A stretch of DNA of 45,579 bases. Source: Deltaproteobacteria bacterium. GTDB lineage: Bacteria; Desulfobacterota; Desulfarculia; Adiutricales; JAFDHD01. The position numbers were made by a program, and so were the translations under genes. Shown here piece after piece: positions 16,863 to 28,723 of the stretch (position 1 is the stretch's first letter; every line of letters begins with the position of its first letter). The stretch lies in assembly GCA_019308995.1 (NCBI GenBank), contig JAFDHD010000013.1:1-45579 (forward strand), in the 5' to 3' direction. The notes beneath the pieces were generated by a model, which made no database searches, was not told the origin of the DNA, and worked only from the letters and a program-made list of their open reading frames with translations.

Positions 16863-17981
16863 ATGTCAATGAAAGCCAGGTCTTTGATCCTTTTTTTTAT
16901 CCTTTTGCCAGCAGTACTTATACCTGGCTTTTTCTCGGTCCGGGCCAAGGAGAAGGCCTCAAAGCCTGTTTCGGCTCGGGTGGAGAAGCCTATACCTGTG
17001 CAGGTGATGGAAATACACAACCAGAAACTGCCTCTGGTGGTGGAAGCCGTGGGCCGTCTCTATCCCAATCGGCAGGTGACTGTGACAGCAGAAGTTCCGG
17101 GCTTGATCACCAGCTATGCGGTTGATCAGGGGGACAGGGTCAGGGCCGGTCAGCTTCTGATCAAGATTGATCCTGTGGATTATAGGCTGGCTTATGAAGA
17201 GGCCGAGGCCAACCTGATTGCCGTCCAGGCAAGGTTATATGCCACAGCCAAGGCCTTTCAGCGGGCCAAGAAACTCCTGCCACGGAAGGTCATCTCTCCG
17301 GACAGTTACGAAAAAGCTGAGGCCGAATTCAAGTCGGCTCAGGCCCAGGAAGTCCGGGCCAAAATTGGAGTTAAGATCGCGAAACAAAGGTTGAAAAAAA
17401 CCCGGCTGGCCGCCCCTTTTTCCAGCCTGGTGGCTACGCGTCATATTGAAGTCGGTCAGATGATTGGAATCGGAGTGCCATTGATGACCCTGGTGGACCT
17501 GAGCCGGGTGCGGGTCAAGGTTCATCTTGCCGAACGGGACTATGTCCATCTTGATCGGGAAGACCCGGTGCAGGTCAAGATCGAGGCTTACCCGGACCGC
17601 ATGTTCAAAGGCCGGGTGGACCGAATCAGCATTACCGCCGATCCTGCGACCAATACCTTTGGTGTGGAGATCCTGGTTGAGAACCCTGACCTGACTCTGA
17701 AAGCAGGGTTATCCGCCCGGGTTTACCTCACGACTCAGGTCCTGAACGGCGTGATCCTCATCCCCCAGAGCGCGGTCCTGTATCGAGAAAAAGGGGCCGA
17801 GCTCTTTGTCCTGGATTCGGATCAGAAGGCGCAAAAGAGACGCGTCAAACTTGGATTGACCAGAGGCGATCTGGTCCAGGTTGTTGAAGGCCTAACCGTG
17901 GGCGATAAACTGGTGGTCAAAGGCCAGAACTACCTCAAATCCGGTTCCAGGGTCACTGTGACCGCATCGGGATTGAAATAG
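16863..17981 (+). CDS. RND efflux periplasmic adaptor (membrane fusion protein)
   Basis: This 372-residue adaptor would link the inner-membrane RND pump to an outer membrane channel. A signal peptide or membrane anchor occupies about residues 5-28. The barrel-sandwich (lipoyl-like) halves show VTVTAEVPGLITSYAVDQGDR and, after the alpha-hairpin (about 95-170, heptad-like), KTRLAAPFSSLVATRHIEVGQ. The beta-barrel and membrane-proximal domains follow (VKIEAYPDRMFKGRVDRIS, GLTVGDKLVVKGQNYLKSG). No lipobox is seen. The pump gene starts 5 nt after the stop. No TolC-like channel gene is in the window. Confidence 0.92.
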   Translation: MSMKARSLILFFILLPAVLIPGFFSVRAKEKASKPVSARVEKPIPVQVMEIHNQKLPLVVEAVGRLYPNRQVTVTAEVPGLITSYAVDQGDRVRAGQLLIKIDPVDYRLAYEEAEANLIAVQARLYATAKAFQRAKKLLPRKVISPDSYEKAEAEFKSAQAQEVRAKIGVKIAKQRLKKTRLAAPFSSLVATRHIEVGQMIGIGVPLMTLVDLSRVRVKVHLAERDYVHLDREDPVQVKIEAYPDRMFKGRVDRISITADPATNTFGVEILVENPDLTLKAGLSARVYLTTQVLNGVILIPQSAVLYREKGAELFVLDSDQKAQKRRVKLGLTRGDLVQVVEGLTVGDKLVVKGQNYLKSGSRVTVTASGLK

Positions 17982-17986
17982 AACCA

Positions 17987-20900
17987 ATGAATTTTATTCG
18001 CTTTATCATACGATACGGCCGTATCTTTACGCTGCTCTCTGTCATCCTCCCGGTAGTCGCGGGGGTGGTGGCCTACCAGAACCTGCCCAAGGAAGGGAAT
18101 CCGGAAATAGCCGTGCCGGTGGCCATTGTCATCACCCCATATGTCGGGGCCTCCCCTAATGAAGTCGAAAGCCTGGTCACGAACCCGCTTGAAGAAGCGA
18201 TCGCCGACATCTCGGACATCAAGGAGCTGAGTTCCTTTTCTGCTTCCGGGGCTTCAATCGTTGTCGTGCAGTTTGACGTGGACGCCGACGTGGAAGAGAT
18301 GCTCCAGAAAGTCCGGGACAAGGTGAGCCGGGCCAGGAAGCTTCTGCCCAGCGGGATCGAGGAACCGGAGGTCCAGGAGATTAATTTCTCAGAGATACCG
18401 ATCATGATCGTCTCGATCGTGGGTGACCTGGACCCCATCAGGATGAAGCGTCTGGCCGAGGACGTGGCGGAGGAATTTAAGCTGCTGCCCGAGGTCCTTG
18501 ACACGGATGTGGTCGGCGGTTTGACCCGGGAGATTCAGATTTATCTAGACCCGGATCGCCTCAACCAGTATGGCCTGACCATTCTGGACGTGGCCAACGC
18601 CATTGGCAAGTCTGACATCTCCATTCCCGGCGGGCAGATCACGATTTCCAACCGGAAGTATGTCCTGCGCACCCTGACCGAGATCAAAGAGGTCTCGGCT
18701 TATGCCCGCGTTCCCCTGATCGAACGGGGCGATCGCGTCGTCTTTTTGGGTGACGTGGCTGAGATCGTGGACGGGCATGAGGAGGACATATCCTACTCCC
18801 GGGTCCAGGGCCAGTCCTCGGTCTCCATCGCGGTCAAGAAAAGACCGGGCACCAATATCCTTGAAACGGCGCAAAAAATTCGTGACAGGGTCAAGGAGCT
18901 GGAAAAGACGTTCCCGGTCGGCGTGTACTCGGTTGTAACCGCGGATCAGTCTAAATACATCAAGCAGGGTTTTAAGGCCATGACCAATTCGGCCCTCTCG
19001 GGCCTGGTGGTCGTGATTATCGTGCTTTATTTTGCCTTGGGGCTTCGCAACTCGATCATCACCTCCCTCGCCATCCCGCTTTCCCTGTTAATCACCTTCA
19101 TCCTCTTGAATATCTTCGGCCTGAGCAACAACGATATGGTCCGGTTCTCCCTGGTGCTGTGTATCGGTCTTCTGGTGGACAACGCCATCATCGTCGTGGA
19201 AAGCGCCTACTACCATTATCAACTGGGCAAGGACCGCCTGACCGCCGTTATTGACGGCGTCTCTGAGATCGCGCTTCCGGTCATCTCCGCCACCCTGACC
19301 ACCATCGCCGCCTTCCTGCCCATGCTCCTCATGAGCGGCATGATGGGAAAGTTCATGGGCTTCATGCCCAAGACAGTGGCCATCGCCCTTTTTTCCTCCC
19401 TGATCGTGGCCCTTGTTTCCAATCCACTGATCCTGTCCCGCTTCATGAAACAGACCGTTAAAAAAGGGAAAGTGGTCCGGCCGGAGGAGGACCTCAAGCG
19501 CTTGAAGGCCTTCTATGTTCGCTTCGTGGTCCTGGCCTTAAATCACCGCCTCGCTGTGGTGCTGCTGGTGATCCTGGCCCTGGCCTCCGTAGCCGCCGTC
19601 TTCGGCTTAAAGATCATCAAGCTCGAAATGTTCCCTGAGGCGGACTTTGATTATATCTATATCACCATCAATACGCCTCCGGGAACAGAGGTGGATGTCA
19701 CCGATAATATCGCCCGGCAGGTGGAAAAGATTGTCAATGAGCACGTCTCAGAAGCGGTGCGGGTCGTCTCCACCATCGGACACAGGGGACAGAGCGCCTT
19801 TGAATTCTCCTTTGGCGGAACCCAGTCCAATTTTGCCGAGATCACGGTCGAACTGCTGGACAGCAAGGAATTCAAACGGCTCTCAGACAAAGAAATCAAG
19901 CAGCGCCTCAGACCCATGCTGGACCCCATCGCCGGGGCCGATATACGATACAGGCCGATTCGATGGGGACCGCCGACCGGCAGTCCCATTAACCTCAAGA
20001 TCTTTGGCAATAACCTGACCACCCTTCAACGGATCAGCACGGAGGTGAAAGAAATTCTGGCGCAGATACCCGGGGCGGTGGAGATAAAGGATGACTTCAC
20101 AAATGCCGCTCCCGAGCTTAAAGTTGAGGTGGATCGAAGGGCGGCCGCCGCCCTGGCTGTACCCCTGACCGCGGTGTCCCAGAGCCTGCGGGGGGCCACG
20201 GCCGGGCTGAAGATAAAGGAGTTCCGGGACGAAGAGGATATTTCCAAAAAGTACGACCTCATGGTGAGGTTCTCCCCGGAGTCCAGGTCCAGCGTGGAGA
20301 TGCTGGATAAAATCCGGGTTCGATCCCTGAGCGGGAACCTGGTGCCTCTGTCCAACTTCACCAGAGTGACCCAGGGGCCTGGCATAAACGTCCTGCGCCA
20401 TATTGACCGCCAGCGGGTCGTGAGGATCACCGCCCAGAACCAGGATCGTTCCGCGGTGGAGATTACCCGGGACCTGCAGGCCAGGCTGGCTGGCTATAAA
20501 CTGCCTTTTGGGTATTCTTTCTCATACGCCGGTGATATTACCGAAACCGAGGAGTCATTTGCCAGCCTCAGGCTGGCCTATATAGTGGCCTTTATCATTA
20601 TCCTGACCATCCTGGTGGCCCAGTTCAATTCCTTCTTTCAACCCTTTGCCATTATGGTCGCCCTGCCTCTTTCCATAGTCGGGGCCGTGGTCGGGCTCCT
20701 GGTTACAGGTAACAACTTTTCGATCATGAGTTTTATCGGCCTGGTCGGCCTGACCGGAATCGTGGTCAATGACTCCATCATCCTGGTGGACCGCACGAAC
20801 CGCAAGCGCCGGGAAGGCAATGGTGTGTATGAGGCTATCATGACCGCCGGTCAGGATCGCCTGCGGCCCATTATCTCCACAACCCTGACCACCATGGGCG

Positions 20901-21691
20901 GGCTGGCCACTCTGACCATTACGGACAAAATGTGGGAAGGCCTGGGCGTGGTCATCATTTTTGGCATCGCCTTTGCCACTCTCCTGACCCTGGTGGTGGT
21001 CCCGGTCATGTACACGCTTTTTGACGGCTTTGGTTATCACATGGCCTCTGCCTTCAGAGGGCCGCGCTGGCGGGAAGCTCCTGCTGGCCGGACCTTCTTT
21101 CTGTCGCGCCGCCGGTGGTCGCGGACCAAGGCCGGTTTCATTCTCCTTGTCCAGGTCGCGGTGTTGGCGGCCGGCTTCTTTTATGCGTTTCCCTGGTTCG
21201 TGGAGAAATACCAGGCTGAGGTTATCCAGGCCCCAACCCTGCTCAAGCTGGTTCTCGAAGCCGCGGTCGTTTACGTCACCCTGAGCCTTGAGGCCGCGGG
21301 TCTTGTTCTGGTCCTTCTGACTCCAACCTGGCTGGGCCTGCTCTATCTCATGTGGCTGAGGAGCAGCGAAGGGTACTACGTTGAGATCACTCCTGAAGGC
21401 ATGACCGTGACTTCGCCCGTGGAGAAGCTGTTCCTGCCTCGCGACAGAATAAAAAAAGTACGGTATTCTCACCTCACCGGCCGACTGATCGTTAAGGCCG
21501 GCCCCAGGCGATTCCGGTTCAGGGACGTGGTCGAAGCGCAGCCTATTCTGGACAGGGTTCCTCTTTGGTCCTGGCTCAACTTGTCAAAACCCAGCCGCCG
21601 ACAGGTGCGAGAAGGGCTGAAGACCCTGCGCCTGGCCCTGGAAGGCGTTATGGTTGCTGGACAGCCTGGCAAAGCGATGAGCTCGAACTGA
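17987..21691 (+). CDS. RND efflux pump (AcrB/HAE family) with an unusual C-terminal extension
   Basis: Residues 1 to about 1020 form a typical RND transporter: N-terminal TM1, porter domain (NLPKEGNPEIAVPVAIV), central TM bundle (LVLCIGLLVDNAIIVVES), second porter half and C-terminal TM bundle (GLVGLTGIVVNDSIILVDR). TM4 has the VDNA form with one Asp, where AcrB has two. Family members usually end near residue 1050; this one has 1234. The extra part (about 1021-1234) holds two or three more hydrophobic segments (AGFILLVQVAVLAAGFFYAF; AAGLVLVLLTPTWLGLLYL), then a beta-rich stretch resembling a bacterial PH domain (GYYVEITPEGMTV, LPRDRIKKVRYS, GRLIVKAGPRRFRFRDV) and a basic helical tail. The frame is continuous, with no stop or repeat at the junction. 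The adaptor gene is directly upstream. Confidence 0.93.
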   Translation: MNFIRFIIRYGRIFTLLSVILPVVAGVVAYQNLPKEGNPEIAVPVAIVITPYVGASPNEVESLVTNPLEEAIADISDIKELSSFSASGASIVVVQFDVDADVEEMLQKVRDKVSRARKLLPSGIEEPEVQEINFSEIPIMIVSIVGDLDPIRMKRLAEDVAEEFKLLPEVLDTDVVGGLTREIQIYLDPDRLNQYGLTILDVANAIGKSDISIPGGQITISNRKYVLRTLTEIKEVSAYARVPLIERGDRVVFLGDVAEIVDGHEEDISYSRVQGQSSVSIAVKKRPGTNILETAQKIRDRVKELEKTFPVGVYSVVTADQSKYIKQGFKAMTNSALSGLVVVIIVLYFALGLRNSIITSLAIPLSLLITFILLNIFGLSNNDMVRFSLVLCIGLLVDNAIIVVESAYYHYQLGKDRLTAVIDGVSEIALPVISATLTTIAAFLPMLLMSGMMGKFMGFMPKTVAIALFSSLIVALVSNPLILSRFMKQTVKKGKVVRPEEDLKRLKAFYVRFVVLALNHRLAVVLLVILALASVAAVFGLKIIKLEMFPEADFDYIYITINTPPGTEVDVTDNIARQVEKIVNEHVSEAVRVVSTIGHRGQSAFEFSFGGTQSNFAEITVELLDSKEFKRLSDKEIKQRLRPMLDPIAGADIRYRPIRWGPPTGSPINLKIFGNNLTTLQRISTEVKEILAQIPGAVEIKDDFTNAAPELKVEVDRRAAAALAVPLTAVSQSLRGATAGLKIKEFRDEEDISKKYDLMVRFSPESRSSVEMLDKIRVRSLSGNLVPLSNFTRVTQGPGINVLRHIDRQRVVRITAQNQDRSAVEITRDLQARLAGYKLPFGYSFSYAGDITETEESFASLRLAYIVAFIIILTILVAQFNSFFQPFAIMVALPLSIVGAVVGLLVTGNNFSIMSFIGLVGLTGIVVNDSIILVDRTNRKRREGNGVYEAIMTAGQDRLRPIISTTLTTMGGLATLTITDKMWEGLGVVIIFGIAFATLLTLVVVPVMYTLFDGFGYHMASAFRGPRWREAPAGRTFFLSRRRWSRTKAGFILLVQVAVLAAGFFYAFPWFVEKYQAEVIQAPTLLKLVLEAAVVYVTLSLEAAGLVLVLLTPTWLGLLYLMWLRSSEGYYVEITPEGMTVTSPVEKLFLPRDRIKKVRYSHLTGRLIVKAGPRRFRFRDVVEAQPILDRVPLWSWLNLSKPSRRQVREGLKTLRLALEGVMVAGQPGKAMSSN

Positions 21692-21780: not shown

Positions 21781-23067
21781 TTAATTTATCATTTGAAAAA
21801 ACCCGAAAAAGAGCAGGGTGCATAACAGGAATACCGCGGCCGGGCCTGCCAGAAGATTATAGCATTTGAGCATGTTCGCATTGAAGTAGTCCCGGGTCAC
21901 CAGGAAGCAGAGGTGGACCGGCGAAAGCATCATACCCATGAATCCGAAGGCATAGGCCAGAAAGGCATGGGCCATGTAGTCCATCCCCTGGTAATGGGCC
22001 AGCAAAGGCACGATCAGGGGAAAGGAGGCGCCGACAAACCCGATAGAGATGCCGGTGATGAACCCGGACAAAAAGGGCATGAGCAGGACGACCAGCAGGG
22101 GCGGGATGCCGTATTGAATCATCTCGGCGTGAATCTGATCCACGGCCCGGCTTTCGACCAGCACCCCTTTAAAGGCCATGATGCCCAGGATGAGAAAGAG
22201 CATGGGCGGGATGGACCGGTTCATAACGGCCCTCAGTACCTGGCCGGCCGGGATGCGGTTCTGACCGATGACCCAGGCCAGGCCGAGGACCAGGCCGAGG
22301 AAAACCGAGGTCAGGGGAGGCAGGTGCAGGCCGGTGCTCAGTTCTATGAGGGCCACCCCTGGAACAGCCAGTACCACCAGAAGAATCGGGGAAACTTCTT
22401 TCAGAAATACCCGCCAGGCGTTTGAATTATCGTTCCTTTTCCGGCCGGAAGGGTTGACTTTGGGTATGCGCCGCAGGAGGAAAATGAATCCGGCGCCGAT
22501 GGCGAACAAGGTCAGGGGAGATTGAAACATAATAAACCGCCAGGTCTGAACCTCCAGCAGGCCGACGGCCAGAATTACGCCCGGATAAAGGGGCCACCAG
22601 TATTCCCAGATATGACGGAACCAGTAGTTGATAGCTGTCTTCAGATTGGCGTCCAGTTCAGACTCCTGGCTGACGGCCTGGACCATGGGTGCGGAAAACA
22701 GCGCACCGCCGGGCATGGGTAAGAGGCCAATCATGGCCGGCATGACGGCCGTCACAATTCTAGCATTGTGAGTGACTTTCGTAAAGCTGGTGACCATACG
22801 GTCCAGCTGGCCGGAGTCGCTCATGAGCCGGCTCAGCACCAGGATGAGGGCCACGATCATAAGCAGGGAGAAGACCATGGAGTTTGCCAGGCTTTTTAGT
22901 ACGGTCGTCAGAATGACTGATGGCCAAAGGTCCATAAGCAGTCCCAGGACCACGCCCCCCAGGAAGAGACCCAGGCTCAGGTGAATCTTGAGCCGATGAG
23001 TGGCCAGGATCAGACCGAAGGCCAGAGAGACCTTGACGAGTGCGGGAAGGTCACTGAAAATCAGCAT
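21781..23067 (-). CDS. DUF401 family integral membrane protein
   Basis: This 428-residue protein has about ten hydrophobic segments along its whole length. The stretch PAMIGLLPMPGGALFSAPMV, followed by NYWFRHIWEYWWPLYPGVIL, matches my recollection of DUF401 (TIGR00529), a family distantly like anion permeases of the GntP/CitM type. The repeated PMPGG-like and LLMPFLSGFITGISIGFVG segments look like two inverted half-repeats with re-entrant loops, as in such permeases. The substrate is unknown. It is transcribed divergently from mreB and converges with the RND gene. Confidence 0.8.
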   Translation of the reverse strand: MLIFSDLPALVKVSLAFGLILATHRLKIHLSLGLFLGGVVLGLLMDLWPSVILTTVLKSLANSMVFSLLMIVALILVLSRLMSDSGQLDRMVTSFTKVTHNARIVTAVMPAMIGLLPMPGGALFSAPMVQAVSQESELDANLKTAINYWFRHIWEYWWPLYPGVILAVGLLEVQTWRFIMFQSPLTLFAIGAGFIFLLRRIPKVNPSGRKRNDNSNAWRVFLKEVSPILLVVLAVPGVALIELSTGLHLPPLTSVFLGLVLGLAWVIGQNRIPAGQVLRAVMNRSIPPMLFLILGIMAFKGVLVESRAVDQIHAEMIQYGIPPLLVVLLMPFLSGFITGISIGFVGASFPLIVPLLAHYQGMDYMAHAFLAYAFGFMGMMLSPVHLCFLVTRDYFNANMLKCYNLLAGPAAVFLLCTLLFFGFFQMIN

Positions 23068-23208: not shown

Positions 23209-24273
<1,065 letters not shown>

Positions 24274-24332
24274 GAAATCCCGGCTGTCTTTCCTGAAGCT
24301 GGCGTAAATCGGAAGGCGTTGAGTCTTGTTTT

Positions 24333-25148
24333 ATGTCACGGTTTTGGCGTCCGATTCTCCTGATAACCCTTCTCGTGCTTTTTTTGTCCATTTTCATTCG
24401 CTGGGCTGGAGGGCAGAAGAACGTTTTCCAGCCAAGAAGCCTGACCCTGGAGCTAGTCGCGACGTTCCAAAGCATGGTGAGCGTGTCTGCTTCGGCTGTT
24501 GAAAATTTCTGGCGAGACTATTTCTATCTCATCAACGCTCAGGAAGAGAATCAGAAACTGCATCAGACCGTGGATCGGCTTCGAGCTCAGATCAACCGCC
24601 TTAGAGAGGCCGGTCTGGCCAACCGGCGCCTGAAGCATCTGCTGAATTTCCAGACCTCTCACAACCTGCCGGTGGTCGGGGGGCAGGTCGTGGCGTGGGA
24701 CCCCAAGGCCTGGTTCAAGACAATCGTCATTGACCGCGGGGAAGCGGATGGGCTGAAGATTAGCATGCCGGTGGTTGCTGATGCAGGGATCGTAGGCCGA
24801 ATCGTGGGGCTGTCCCCGCATTACGCCAAGGTTCTGCTTTTGATAGACTACAACAGCTCTATAGACACCCTGGTTCAGCGCACGCGCGTGCGGGGCGTCC
24901 TTACCGGAAAGTCGGCCAGGATCTGCGAGCTCAAGTATGTGCTCAAGCATGATGATCTGAAAAAAGGCGACGTCCTGATTACTTCAGGTCTGGGGGGCGT
25001 TTTCCCCAAAGGTCTGAAGCTGGGGACGGTTACCCGGGTCAGAAAGATGAATCATGGTTTATTTCTGGAGGTTGATGTGGCCCCGGCCGTGGATTTTGAC
25101 AAGCTGGAAGAGGTAATTGTCATCCTCAAGGAGGATCGCCTGCTTTAA
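24333..25148 (+). CDS. mreC: Rod-shape-determining protein MreC
   Basis: MreC is a bitopic protein that links MreB to PBP2 in the periplasm. The 271 residues have one N-terminal membrane segment (about 7-22), a coiled coil (AQEENQKLHQTVDRLRAQIN, about 70-100) and two beta domains with typical stretches (ADAGIVGRIVGLSPHYAKVL, GDVLITSGLGGVFPKGLKLG). There is no strong SD close to the ATG at 24333, so the start is the least certain part. Its TAA shares one base with the mreD ATG. Confidence 0.93.
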   Translation: MSRFWRPILLITLLVLFLSIFIRWAGGQKNVFQPRSLTLELVATFQSMVSVSASAVENFWRDYFYLINAQEENQKLHQTVDRLRAQINRLREAGLANRRLKHLLNFQTSHNLPVVGGQVVAWDPKAWFKTIVIDRGEADGLKISMPVVADAGIVGRIVGLSPHYAKVLLLIDYNSSIDTLVQRTRVRGVLTGKSARICELKYVLKHDDLKKGDVLITSGLGGVFPKGLKLGTVTRVRKMNHGLFLEVDVAPAVDFDKLEEVIVILKEDRLL

Positions 25149-25702
25149 TGGAAACACGGGTTCGTGCTCCATCCATCCCTTTGAAAGAGGCCCTGGTTTA
25201 TCTCTTATTGGGCCTTGCTTTCCTGATTTGCGAAACCACGGTCTGGACCTGGTTGGACCCTGGTCACTTTAGACCCAACCTGCTTCTGATTCTCATCGTT
25301 TATTTAGGCATAGCCGTCCCTCTGGCCGCCGGTTTGATCCTGAGCCTGTGTTTTGGGTTTTTAACGGATGCCGCTTCGGGCGGGCCTGCCGGCTTATTTA
25401 CCATCATCTACCTTTCAATCTTCGCCCTGGCCGTTCTGATTCGCCAGAAGCTGGATCCGGCCGCGGCCCTGTATCAGATGCTGATCATCTTCCTTTTTGC
25501 TCTTCTGGCTGAGATTATGGCCTGGAGCATTCTCTCCCTTTACGGCTGGCCGCTCGATGTCATCCTTGCCTCTTCAAGTACCCTGTTTCTGGCGGCTCAA
25601 GCGATATCGGTCCTGGTCACGGCCTTGGTCAGCCCGATCTTCTTTAGGTTTTTTGAACTGATCAAATTTACATACGAACAGCAAGCAGGGGAAGAGGTGT
25701 GA
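25148..25702 (+). CDS. mreD: Rod-shape-determining membrane protein MreD
   Basis: This 184-residue product is almost entirely hydrophobic, with about five or six membrane helices (for example LLLILIVYLGIAVPLAAGLI and MLIIFLFALLAEIMAWSIL). The family motif region GFLTDAASGGPAGLFT is present. MreD works with MreC to activate PBP2 and RodA. The ATG overlaps the mreC stop and the stop overlaps the mrdA GTG, so the three genes are likely translationally coupled. Confidence 0.9.
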   Translation: METRVRAPSIPLKEALVYLLLGLAFLICETTVWTWLDPGHFRPNLLLILIVYLGIAVPLAAGLILSLCFGFLTDAASGGPAGLFTIIYLSIFALAVLIRQKLDPAAALYQMLIIFLFALLAEIMAWSILSLYGWPLDVILASSSTLFLAAQAISVLVTALVSPIFFRFFELIKFTYEQQAGEEV

Positions 25703-27564
25703 GCACTTCAAGGAGTCCGTTTTCCGAGGAACCGGAAGACTTCAAATCCCGCCCCGTCCAGTTGACCTTTGTCCTCTTTCTTCTTTTTTTATTCCTTTTG
25801 ATCCGGTTATGGTACCTGCAGGTCATTAAAGGCCCTGAGTTTCGGATGCTGTCCGAAAGTAACCGCACACGGGTTCAGGATATCCTCCCGACCCGCGGTT
25901 TGATTCTGGACCGTCACGGTCAGATTCTGGTGGACAACCATCCGGCCTTTGACCTGGCGGTCGTTCGGGAGGATGTGCCTGATTTTGATTCCTTGAGCAC
26001 CCGGCTGATCCGTCTTTTAAAACTGCCTCCGGAGGAGCTCCAGGAGAGCTTTGACGCCGCCCGGTCTCAGCCGGCGTTCAAACCGGCTCAAATTCGATCA
26101 GACCTGAGCAGGTTTGAACTGGTGGCCCTGGAAACCCACCGCTATGAGCTGCCCGGGATCGTCATCCAGGTCAAACCCCGGCGTAAATACCTGCACGAGG
26201 GGCTGGCGGCTCATGTGATCGGCTACCTGGGTGAGGTGAATCCGGACCAGTTAAAGCTGAAAAAATATCGAATTTACCGCATGGGAGACCTCATCGGACA
26301 GTACGGCCTTGAGAAGGAACATGAAAAATTTCTCAATGGCAAACGAGGCTGGCGCCTGGTCGAAGTGGCTGCCTCCGGCCGGGTGCTCAAGGTCATCAAA
26401 CAGGTCCGGCCCGTTCCAGGCCATAATCTCTATCTGACCCTGGACTCCCGGTTGCAGCACGCGGCCGAGCAGGCCCTGCAAGGCAAAGCCGGAGCGATCG
26501 TCGCCCTGGACCCCCGTACGGGCGAAATCATGGCCATGGCCTCCTGCCCAACCTTTTCTCAGGAGGATTTCGTCCGGGGAATCACTCCCCAAAAATGGCA
26601 AGAACTGGTGAACAATCCCTTGCATCCGCTCGAGAATCGAGCCATCAGCGGGCAGTACATGCCAGGCTCAACCTTTAAAATCGTGGCGGCCGCGGCAGCC
26701 CTGGAAGAAGGGATTATAACCCCCGAAACAACGGTGACCTGCACCGGCGGCTACCCCTTTGGCAACCGGGTCTTCCGCTGCTGGCGCAAGGGAGGTCACG
26801 GCCGGGTGGCACTGCACCGAGCCCTGGTTGAATCCTGTGACGTCTATTTTTACAATATCGGCCGCCACATAGCCATTGACCGGCTGGCTTATTATTCCAG
26901 GGCCCTGGGTCTGGGGCAGAGAACCGATGTTGGCCTGCGCAATGAAAAGCCCGGCCTGGTCCCAACCAGGGCCTGGAAGAAGAAACGCTTTCAGACCCCC
27001 TGGTATCAGGGAGAAAATCTTTCGGTAATCATTGGGCAGGGCTATAATCTCGTTACACCCCTGCAAATGGCACGGCTGGTGGCTGCCATGGTCAACGGCG
27101 GCATCCTTTACCGGCCATATTTGGTCAAACGAATCACAGATGCCGAGAACAGGGTCATTAAAATCTTTGCCCCAGAGGTTGTTCGGCGCCTGGATTTCAA
27201 GCCTGAAACCCTGGCCCTGATCAAGAAGGCCCTTTGCGGAGTGGTAAACGAGCCTCGAGGCACTGGAAGACGGGCACGGTTAAAAAATATAACCGTTGGA
27301 GGCAAGACCGGCACCTCCCAGGTGGTGGCCATGGGCAACTCCAGGGTCAAGGAGAAGGACCTGCCTTATGAACATCGCGATCACGCCTGGTTTGTCGCTT
27401 TCGCCCCGGTCAAAGAGCCGAGGATTGTCCTAGTCGTAATCGCCGAACACAGCGGTCACGGCGGTTCAGCCGCCGCCCCGCTGGCTAATAAGGTCCTGGA
27501 AGTCTTTTTCTCCAAGAAGGCGAAGGAGCAGATAATCGCCGACAGCAAGCCGCCTGGGCGGTGA
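25699..27564 (+). CDS. mrdA: Penicillin-binding protein 2, elongasome transpeptidase
   Basis: PBP2 cross-links new lateral wall peptidoglycan as the partner of RodA. The 621 residues have one membrane anchor (about 24-44), a pedestal/dimerisation domain (ILPTRGLILDRHGQILVDN) and the transpeptidase domain with the three class B motifs: STFK (active Ser near 322, in YMPGSTFKIV), SCD in the SxN position, and KTG near 536 (GGKTGTSQVV). The GTG start at 25699 overlaps the mreD stop by four bases, with an SD-like GAAGAGG next to it. rodA follows after 52 nt. Confidence 0.95.
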   Translation: MSTSRSPFSEEPEDFKSRPVQLTFVLFLLFLFLLIRLWYLQVIKGPEFRMLSESNRTRVQDILPTRGLILDRHGQILVDNHPAFDLAVVREDVPDFDSLSTRLIRLLKLPPEELQESFDAARSQPAFKPAQIRSDLSRFELVALETHRYELPGIVIQVKPRRKYLHEGLAAHVIGYLGEVNPDQLKLKKYRIYRMGDLIGQYGLEKEHEKFLNGKRGWRLVEVAASGRVLKVIKQVRPVPGHNLYLTLDSRLQHAAEQALQGKAGAIVALDPRTGEIMAMASCPTFSQEDFVRGITPQKWQELVNNPLHPLENRAISGQYMPGSTFKIVAAAAALEEGIITPETTVTCTGGYPFGNRVFRCWRKGGHGRVALHRALVESCDVYFYNIGRHIAIDRLAYYSRALGLGQRTDVGLRNEKPGLVPTRAWKKKRFQTPWYQGENLSVIIGQGYNLVTPLQMARLVAAMVNGGILYRPYLVKRITDAENRVIKIFAPEVVRRLDFKPETLALIKKALCGVVNEPRGTGRRARLKNITVGGKTGTSQVVAMGNSRVKEKDLPYEHRDHAWFVAFAPVKEPRIVLVVIAEHSGHGGSAAAPLANKVLEVFFSKKAKEQIIADSKPPGR

Positions 27565-27616
27565 GAGTGTTAAGAGCAATGCCGTGGTCTTGCGGTTCCT
27601 GTAAGGATATAAAGTC

Positions 27617-28723
27617 ATGATGTTTGACCGGCGTCTCATTCAGAACTTTGACTGGATACTTCTCTGCCTGGTCTTGATCCTGGCCGGATTGGGCATCCTG
27701 AATCTTTACAGCGCTTCTTCCGGGTTCAAGATCGGCGGCGTGCCGATTTACCTCAAGCAGATTTACTGGCTGTCCCTGGGGATCCCGGCTCTCCTGGTCA
27801 TGCTCATCTTCGATTACCATCAATTGGAGCGAGCGGCCTACCTGCTTTTCGCCCTCGGCCTTGTCTTGCTGATCCTGGTTTTATTTTCCGGTCGGGCCGT
27901 TTCGGGTGCCCAGCGCTGGCTGGACCTGGGGGTTTTTTCCTTCCAACCATCGGAACTGGTAAAGCTTTTCGTGCTGGCAGCCCTGGCGCGCTACTTTTCC
28001 CGGCGAGATTATCCGGAAGGCCTGAGACTGAGGGACCTGGCCGTGCCCATGCTCCTGGCCGGACTGCCTTTTTTGCTTATCTTGAAACAGCCGGATCTGG
28101 GAACCGCCCTGCATCTGGCTATTGTCTGCTTATCGGTGATTCTTTTCTTGAGGGTGCGCTGGGATGCCCTGCTGATATTATCCTCCGGCGTGGCCGCGGC
28201 CCTGCCGTTTATCTGGTCGCTTCTTAAGGCCTATCAAAAACAGAGAATCATGACTTTCCTCAACCCGGCCAAAGACCCTCAGGGAGCCGGGTATCATATT
28301 ATTCAATCCAAGATTGCGGTTGGTTCTGGTCAGACCTGGGGTAAGGGTTTCATGAAAGGCACGCAAAGCCATCTGCGCTTTCTGCCCGAGCAGCACACGG
28401 ACTTTGCCTTTTCGGTTTTTGCTGAAGAATGGGGATTTGTGGGCGCTTTTGTCCTTCTGGGCCTGTTTTTCCTTTTTATGATATGGGGGCTTCGGATTGT
28501 GAGCCGGTCTCAGGACCGATTCGGGGCCCTGCTCGGCGTGAGCCTGGTGCTCCTTATCTTCTGGCAGGTTTTTTTCAACCTCTGCATGGTCATTGGGTTA
28601 ATGCCGGTCGTAGGCATCCCCCTGCCATTCATCAGCTACGGGGGTTCCTCCCTGGTAACCATCTTCATCGCCATCGGTCTGCTTCTAAACATCAGTATGC
28701 GCCGGTTCATGTTCCAGAAATGA
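27617..28723 (+). CDS. rodA: SEDS peptidoglycan glycosyltransferase RodA
   Basis: RodA polymerises glycan strands from lipid II during elongation. The 368-residue protein has about ten membrane helices. SEDS features include ALLVMLIFDYHQLERAAYLL early on, a conserved LKQPDLGTAL segment, FLPEQHTDFAFSVFAEEWGF and the C-terminal PLPFISYGGSSLV. The ATG at 27617 has an AAGGA about 10 nt upstream. It is the last gene of the elongasome run. Confidence 0.96.
   Translation: MMFDRRLIQNFDWILLCLVLILAGLGILNLYSASSGFKIGGVPIYLKQIYWLSLGIPALLVMLIFDYHQLERAAYLLFALGLVLLILVLFSGRAVSGAQRWLDLGVFSFQPSELVKLFVLAALARYFSRRDYPEGLRLRDLAVPMLLAGLPFLLILKQPDLGTALHLAIVCLSVILFLRVRWDALLILSSGVAAALPFIWSLLKAYQKQRIMTFLNPAKDPQGAGYHIIQSKIAVGSGQTWGKGFMKGTQSHLRFLPEQHTDFAFSVFAEEWGFVGAFVLLGLFFLFMIWGLRIVSRSQDRFGALLGVSLVLLIFWQVFFNLCMVIGLMPVVGIPLPFISYGGSSLVTIFIAIGLLLNISMRRFMFQK

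Follow-up and report, generated by a model that had tools for sequence, protein, structure and literature searches.

An RND efflux permease of Desulfobacterota with a conserved C-terminal extension of predicted membrane helices and a predicted PH-like domain

The window, i.e., the complete stretch of 45,579 nucleotides analysed here (contig JAFDHD010000013.1 of a Deltaproteobacteria bacterium), encodes on its forward strand a periplasmic adaptor followed by an RND permease with a C-terminal extension. The permease gene is a single open frame with an ATG start, and the original prediction had described it correctly in position and length. The features of the locus are listed below, with the basis of each assignment in brackets.

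16863 to 17981, + strand: periplasmic adaptor, HlyD/CusB-type membrane fusion protein (Pfam HlyD_D23, 88.6 bits; 5 bases separate it from the pump gene downstream)
17987 to 21691, + strand: the entire fused gene, coding for the RND permease and its C-terminal extension, 1234 amino acids (single open frame)
17987 to 21022, + strand: RND permease core, residues 1-1012 (PF00873 ACR_tran match, residues 4-1012)
21029 to 21130, + strand: predicted basic cytoplasmic linker, residues 1015-1048 (net charge from +4 to +8 in each of the 11 homologues)
21134 to 21199, + strand: extra membrane helix TM13, residues 1050-1071 (hydropathy over 11 homologues; helix in both models)
21239 to 21361, + strand: extra membrane helix TM14, residues 1085-1125, with a probable kink at the invariant Pro1113 (hydropathy; model helices; invariant proline)
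21371 to 21535, + strand: seven predicted beta-strands of a PH-like domain, residues 1129-1183 (two models; Foldseek matches to the PH superfold; net basic in 11 of 11)
21560 to 21658, + strand: conserved PLxxWL motif with an invariant Trp, and C-terminal helix, residues 1192-1224 (invariant residues; helices in the models)

The Pfam family ACR_tran covered the core as a full-length match with 668.9 bits (cut-off 28), leaving approximately 220 residues on its C-terminal side. Alignments to solved RND structures, with MdtB as the best match to the core, stopped at protein residues 1010-1023, and the predicted end of the core near residue 1020 is borne out by both boundaries. With the HAE1-type permeases of PF00873 (MdtB, MexK, AcrB), the pump shares homology over the full length of the core and an adjoining adaptor gene; whereas the solved relatives stop near the core end, the window pump continues into the extension. 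A homologue of the adaptor is the direct upstream neighbour in all eight related loci that are complete on that side, and reading the starts of the open reading frames in the pump flanks brought no outer-membrane channel gene to notice. No named NCBIfam RND subfamily scored above its cut-off, the best being RND_permease_2 with 642 bits (cut-off 1250). In all 11 pumps that bear the extension, TM4 of the core carries VDN and TM10 carries VND (residues 398-399 and 928-929 in the window), unlike MdtB, which has VDD in TM4 and a lysine-bearing motif. The complete set of AcrB-type proton-relay residues, two Asp in TM4 and a Lys in TM10, is absent from all 11. This residue set is a feature of the AcrB type and is not common to every RND permease; the TM10 lysine was also missing from many other RND pumps sampled in these genomes. 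Judged by these motifs, the proton relay of the core is probably arranged differently from that of AcrB.

For the extension, the last 220 residues were analysed as a separate segment (P0002), residue 1 of which corresponds to protein residue 1015. Hydropathy averaged over the 11 homologues revealed two hydrophobic regions at segment positions 36-57 and 72-108, connected by a short and almost uncharged loop. Both structural models split the second region at the invariant Pro99 into a long helix and a short one, at 71-96 and 99-111 in the first model. The second region is followed by R111 and then by a beta-rich stretch that is net basic in all 11 homologues, and further downstream L179 and W182 are invariant in the 11-row alignment. 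Because the helix at 99-111 seems too short to span the membrane alone, we read the predicted topology as two crossings and not three. Positive charge lies on both outer sides of the helices and hardly any between them, which fits an even number of crossings; therefore, the C-terminal domain should be cytoplasmic in this predicted topology. The original prediction had seen two or three additional hydrophobic helices: extra membrane helices are indeed supported, and two are favoured over three.

The same one-frame fusion was found in 10 other genomes, and with the window the 11 cases represent two classes of one phylum and nine families. The carriers from the window's class are G001 (same genus), G003 and G005 (same order), and G041 (same class), and those from another class of the phylum are G265, G466, G468, G486, G559, and G608. 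Identity of their extensions to that of the window ranged from 29 to 67% in the 11-row alignment. A free-standing version was found neither among 63 genomes of the class, nor among 395 genomes across the phylum, nor among 192 genomes of the class of G265; the other matches in these searches were short and weak only. The anticipated recurrence on RND pumps elsewhere in the phylum was thus seen, always in fused form. For other phyla, coverage consisted of a single strict pattern search across genome contigs, in which one locus was found, and viral contigs and plasmids yielded no relatives of the extension.

When the core alone was used as the query, the 11 extension-bearing cores stood apart, with 58-85% identity to the window core compared with 35-38% for the next best pumps. 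The tails after TM12 comprised 214-224 residues in all 11 extension-bearing pumps and 5-55 residues in the 28 other aligned pumps. In a maximum-likelihood tree of the core, the 11 formed one group with a support of 100/100 and, with midpoint rooting, a long branch to their neighbours. Within the sample, core subfamily and extension coincide fully, and this complete coincidence favours a single gain of the extension. Against the nearest relative, G001, omega was approximately 0.10-0.11 for the extension and 0.05-0.06 for the core, although dS is high and the ratios are rough. On these estimates, the extension is under purifying selection.

Searches of the extension against Pfam, NCBIfam, and the PDB, with single sequences as well as 5-row and 11-row profiles, gave no accepted match. 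Scattered weak matches to one or two members each (e.g., HTH_ABP1_N, 0.019; FxsA, 0.052; FA_desaturase, 0.56) were regarded as noise, as was the best PDB sequence match with an E-value of 0.66. The original prediction had likened the beta-rich stretch to domains of the bPH/DUF304 type; as a sequence family, DUF304/bPH_2 (PF03703) was not supported. None of the 11 homologues matched a PH family in Pfam. When the 11-row profile was compared by HH-align with 27 bPH_2 proteins taken from related genomes, the probabilities stayed below 1%, no different in range from those of shuffled and reversed controls, and were not significant in any grouping. The family YcxB (PF14317) gave a single match in 60 genomes, which does not suffice to build a profile. 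In their layout, the bPH_2/DUF304 proteins (YdbS) and the DUF2244 proteins, in which an intracellular PH-like domain comes after two membrane helices (PMC2817789), resemble what is predicted here. The extension appears to be built like these proteins, yet its sequence does not support bPH_2 membership; moreover, the known proteins are free-standing, whereas the extension is covalently part of a pump. A free-standing bPH_2 protein with two membrane helices is encoded in the window's own genome (L077, G000:C38:11507-11686, + strand, open frame of approximately 165 amino acids), and the sister genome G001 also encodes a two-helix bPH_2 protein of this free-standing kind (L074).

Modelling of the extension with AlphaFold, a check proposed with the original prediction, resulted in a mean pLDDT of 55 for the single sequence and of 61 for a two-row alignment of the window with one relative (L008). 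Both low-confidence models contain seven strands in order and then a C-terminal helix, in keeping with the beta-rich stretch noticed earlier, and the same strand order with a C-terminal helix has been described for PH domains (PMC2817789). With either model, Foldseek matches in the PDB were almost entirely PH-superfold proteins, namely FERM F3 lobes, PTB domains, PH domains, Rtt106, Pob3, and SPT16, but every E-value was at least 0.01. The TM-scores normalised by the query amounted to 0.14-0.27, partly because the query includes the membrane helices. A PH-like fold, as had been read by eye from the sequence, is supported mainly by the concurrence of unrelated PH families, which we regard as suggestive. 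That the beta-rich part is instead a small beta domain other than a PH fold appears unlikely to us: it would be consistent with the low model confidence, the Foldseek E-values, and the missing profile match, while the PH strand order in two models and the several unrelated PH-superfold families filling both lists argue against it.

Taken as a whole, the gene encodes an inner-membrane permease that forms an efflux pair with its adaptor. In it, a two-helix hairpin after the RND core would bring the chain back to the cytoplasm and position a basic, seven-stranded PH-like domain under the pump. By analogy to AcrZ, which wraps AcrB and alters its specificity (PMC10710835), the hairpin may pack against the outside of the membrane part of the pump. 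In the trimer, three PH-like domains would then surround the cytoplasmic face, where their ligand could be anionic lipid or an acidic partner from the cytoplasm, and such binding might tune or localise the pump. The likeness to AcrZ and YajC, both of which bind AcrB (PMC10710835), concerns the placement of extra helices against the RND membrane part and serves as a working model; in contrast to the extension, these proteins are encoded by separate genes and contain no PH-like domain. Membrane-anchored intracellular PHb domains provide a precedent for the proposed arrangement (PMC2817789), and one experimental finding ties membrane PHb proteins to peptide export (PMC8657885). Since the authors who solved PHb domains favour protein binding and argue against lipid (PMC2817789), a protein partner would, by analogy, be at least as likely as a lipid.

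With regard to these data, we consider the extension most likely to be an integral part of the protein, below the pump, with a regulatory or anchoring task, and we give this putative function a probability of roughly 0.5. In favour of this reading are the invariable fusion in 11 genomes, the single core group, the omega of approximately 0.1, the PH strand order with the Foldseek lists, and the charge pattern of basic flanks, a nearly neutral interhelix loop, and a net-basic domain in all 11 homologues. Against it stand the pLDDT values of 55 and 61, the lack of any Foldseek E-value below 0.01, and the absence of a sequence match to a known PH family. Only tentatively do we go further and propose that this pump subfamily may possess its own cytoplasmic, membrane-facing PH-like sensor, through which a lipid or protein signal would regulate pumping via the covalently attached domain.

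A mainly structural role, in which hairpin and cytoplasmic domain would stabilise or assemble the trimer with neither sensing nor a partner, seems rather doubtful, but would fit several observations. The module is constant in the subfamily while the neighbouring genes other than the adaptor vary between genomes, and therefore no dedicated partner gene is seen. In addition, the solved PHb domains form oligomeric rings, and a role of membrane PHb domains in mediating oligomerisation was proposed (PMC2817789). However, RND trimers elsewhere assemble without such an extension, and the 28 other aligned pumps also lack it. Still less probable is a function in substrate handover, whereby the extension would capture substrate from the inner leaflet or the cytoplasm, either a hydrophobic compound or a peptide, and pass it to the pump. 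Here, enterocin DD14 offers a parallel: its release depends on the membrane PHb proteins DdE and DdF and stopped when ddE or ddF was deleted (PMC8657885); but by sequence the extension does not belong to that PHb family, and no biosynthetic or peptide gene accompanies the pump in the flanks that were read. Finally, a frameshift or an assembly error joining two separate genes can be dismissed in view of the intact fusion in the 10 other genomes and the purifying selection across the extension.

The part of the protein in question is an undescribed, conserved C-terminal module on an ordinary pump core, covered by no Pfam or NCBIfam family. No description of an RND pump carrying either extra C-terminal helices or a PH domain was found in the open-licence literature, nor was regulation of RND pumps through a covalently attached cytoplasmic domain described in the open-licence papers found. 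The regulation of RND pumps has mostly been studied at the level of transcription or via small separate membrane proteins. Being absent from both family collections, the extension could be given a domain family of its own. If the built-in cytoplasmic PH-like module is real, it would open a direct route to finding out whether RND pumping is subject to control from the cell interior, and it would provide a function-linked setting for bacterial PH domains, whose roles are mostly obscure.

Regarding the wider surroundings of the pump, the adaptor-pump pair of the window is adjoined on the opposite strand by a methyltransferase-like gene and a DUF401 gene; the latter encodes a membrane protein (21781-23067, - strand) and is the convergent neighbour of the pump gene. 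In G005, a gene that reads as a TetR-like regulator (L023 4041-4661, + strand) is convergent with the pump gene, the end of which it overlaps over a few bases; such a gene was not seen adjoining the other pump copies. Further downstream in the window (23224-28723, + strand), an MreB gene heads a run of genes that, by reading, resembles an mreCD-mrdAB cell-shape cluster.
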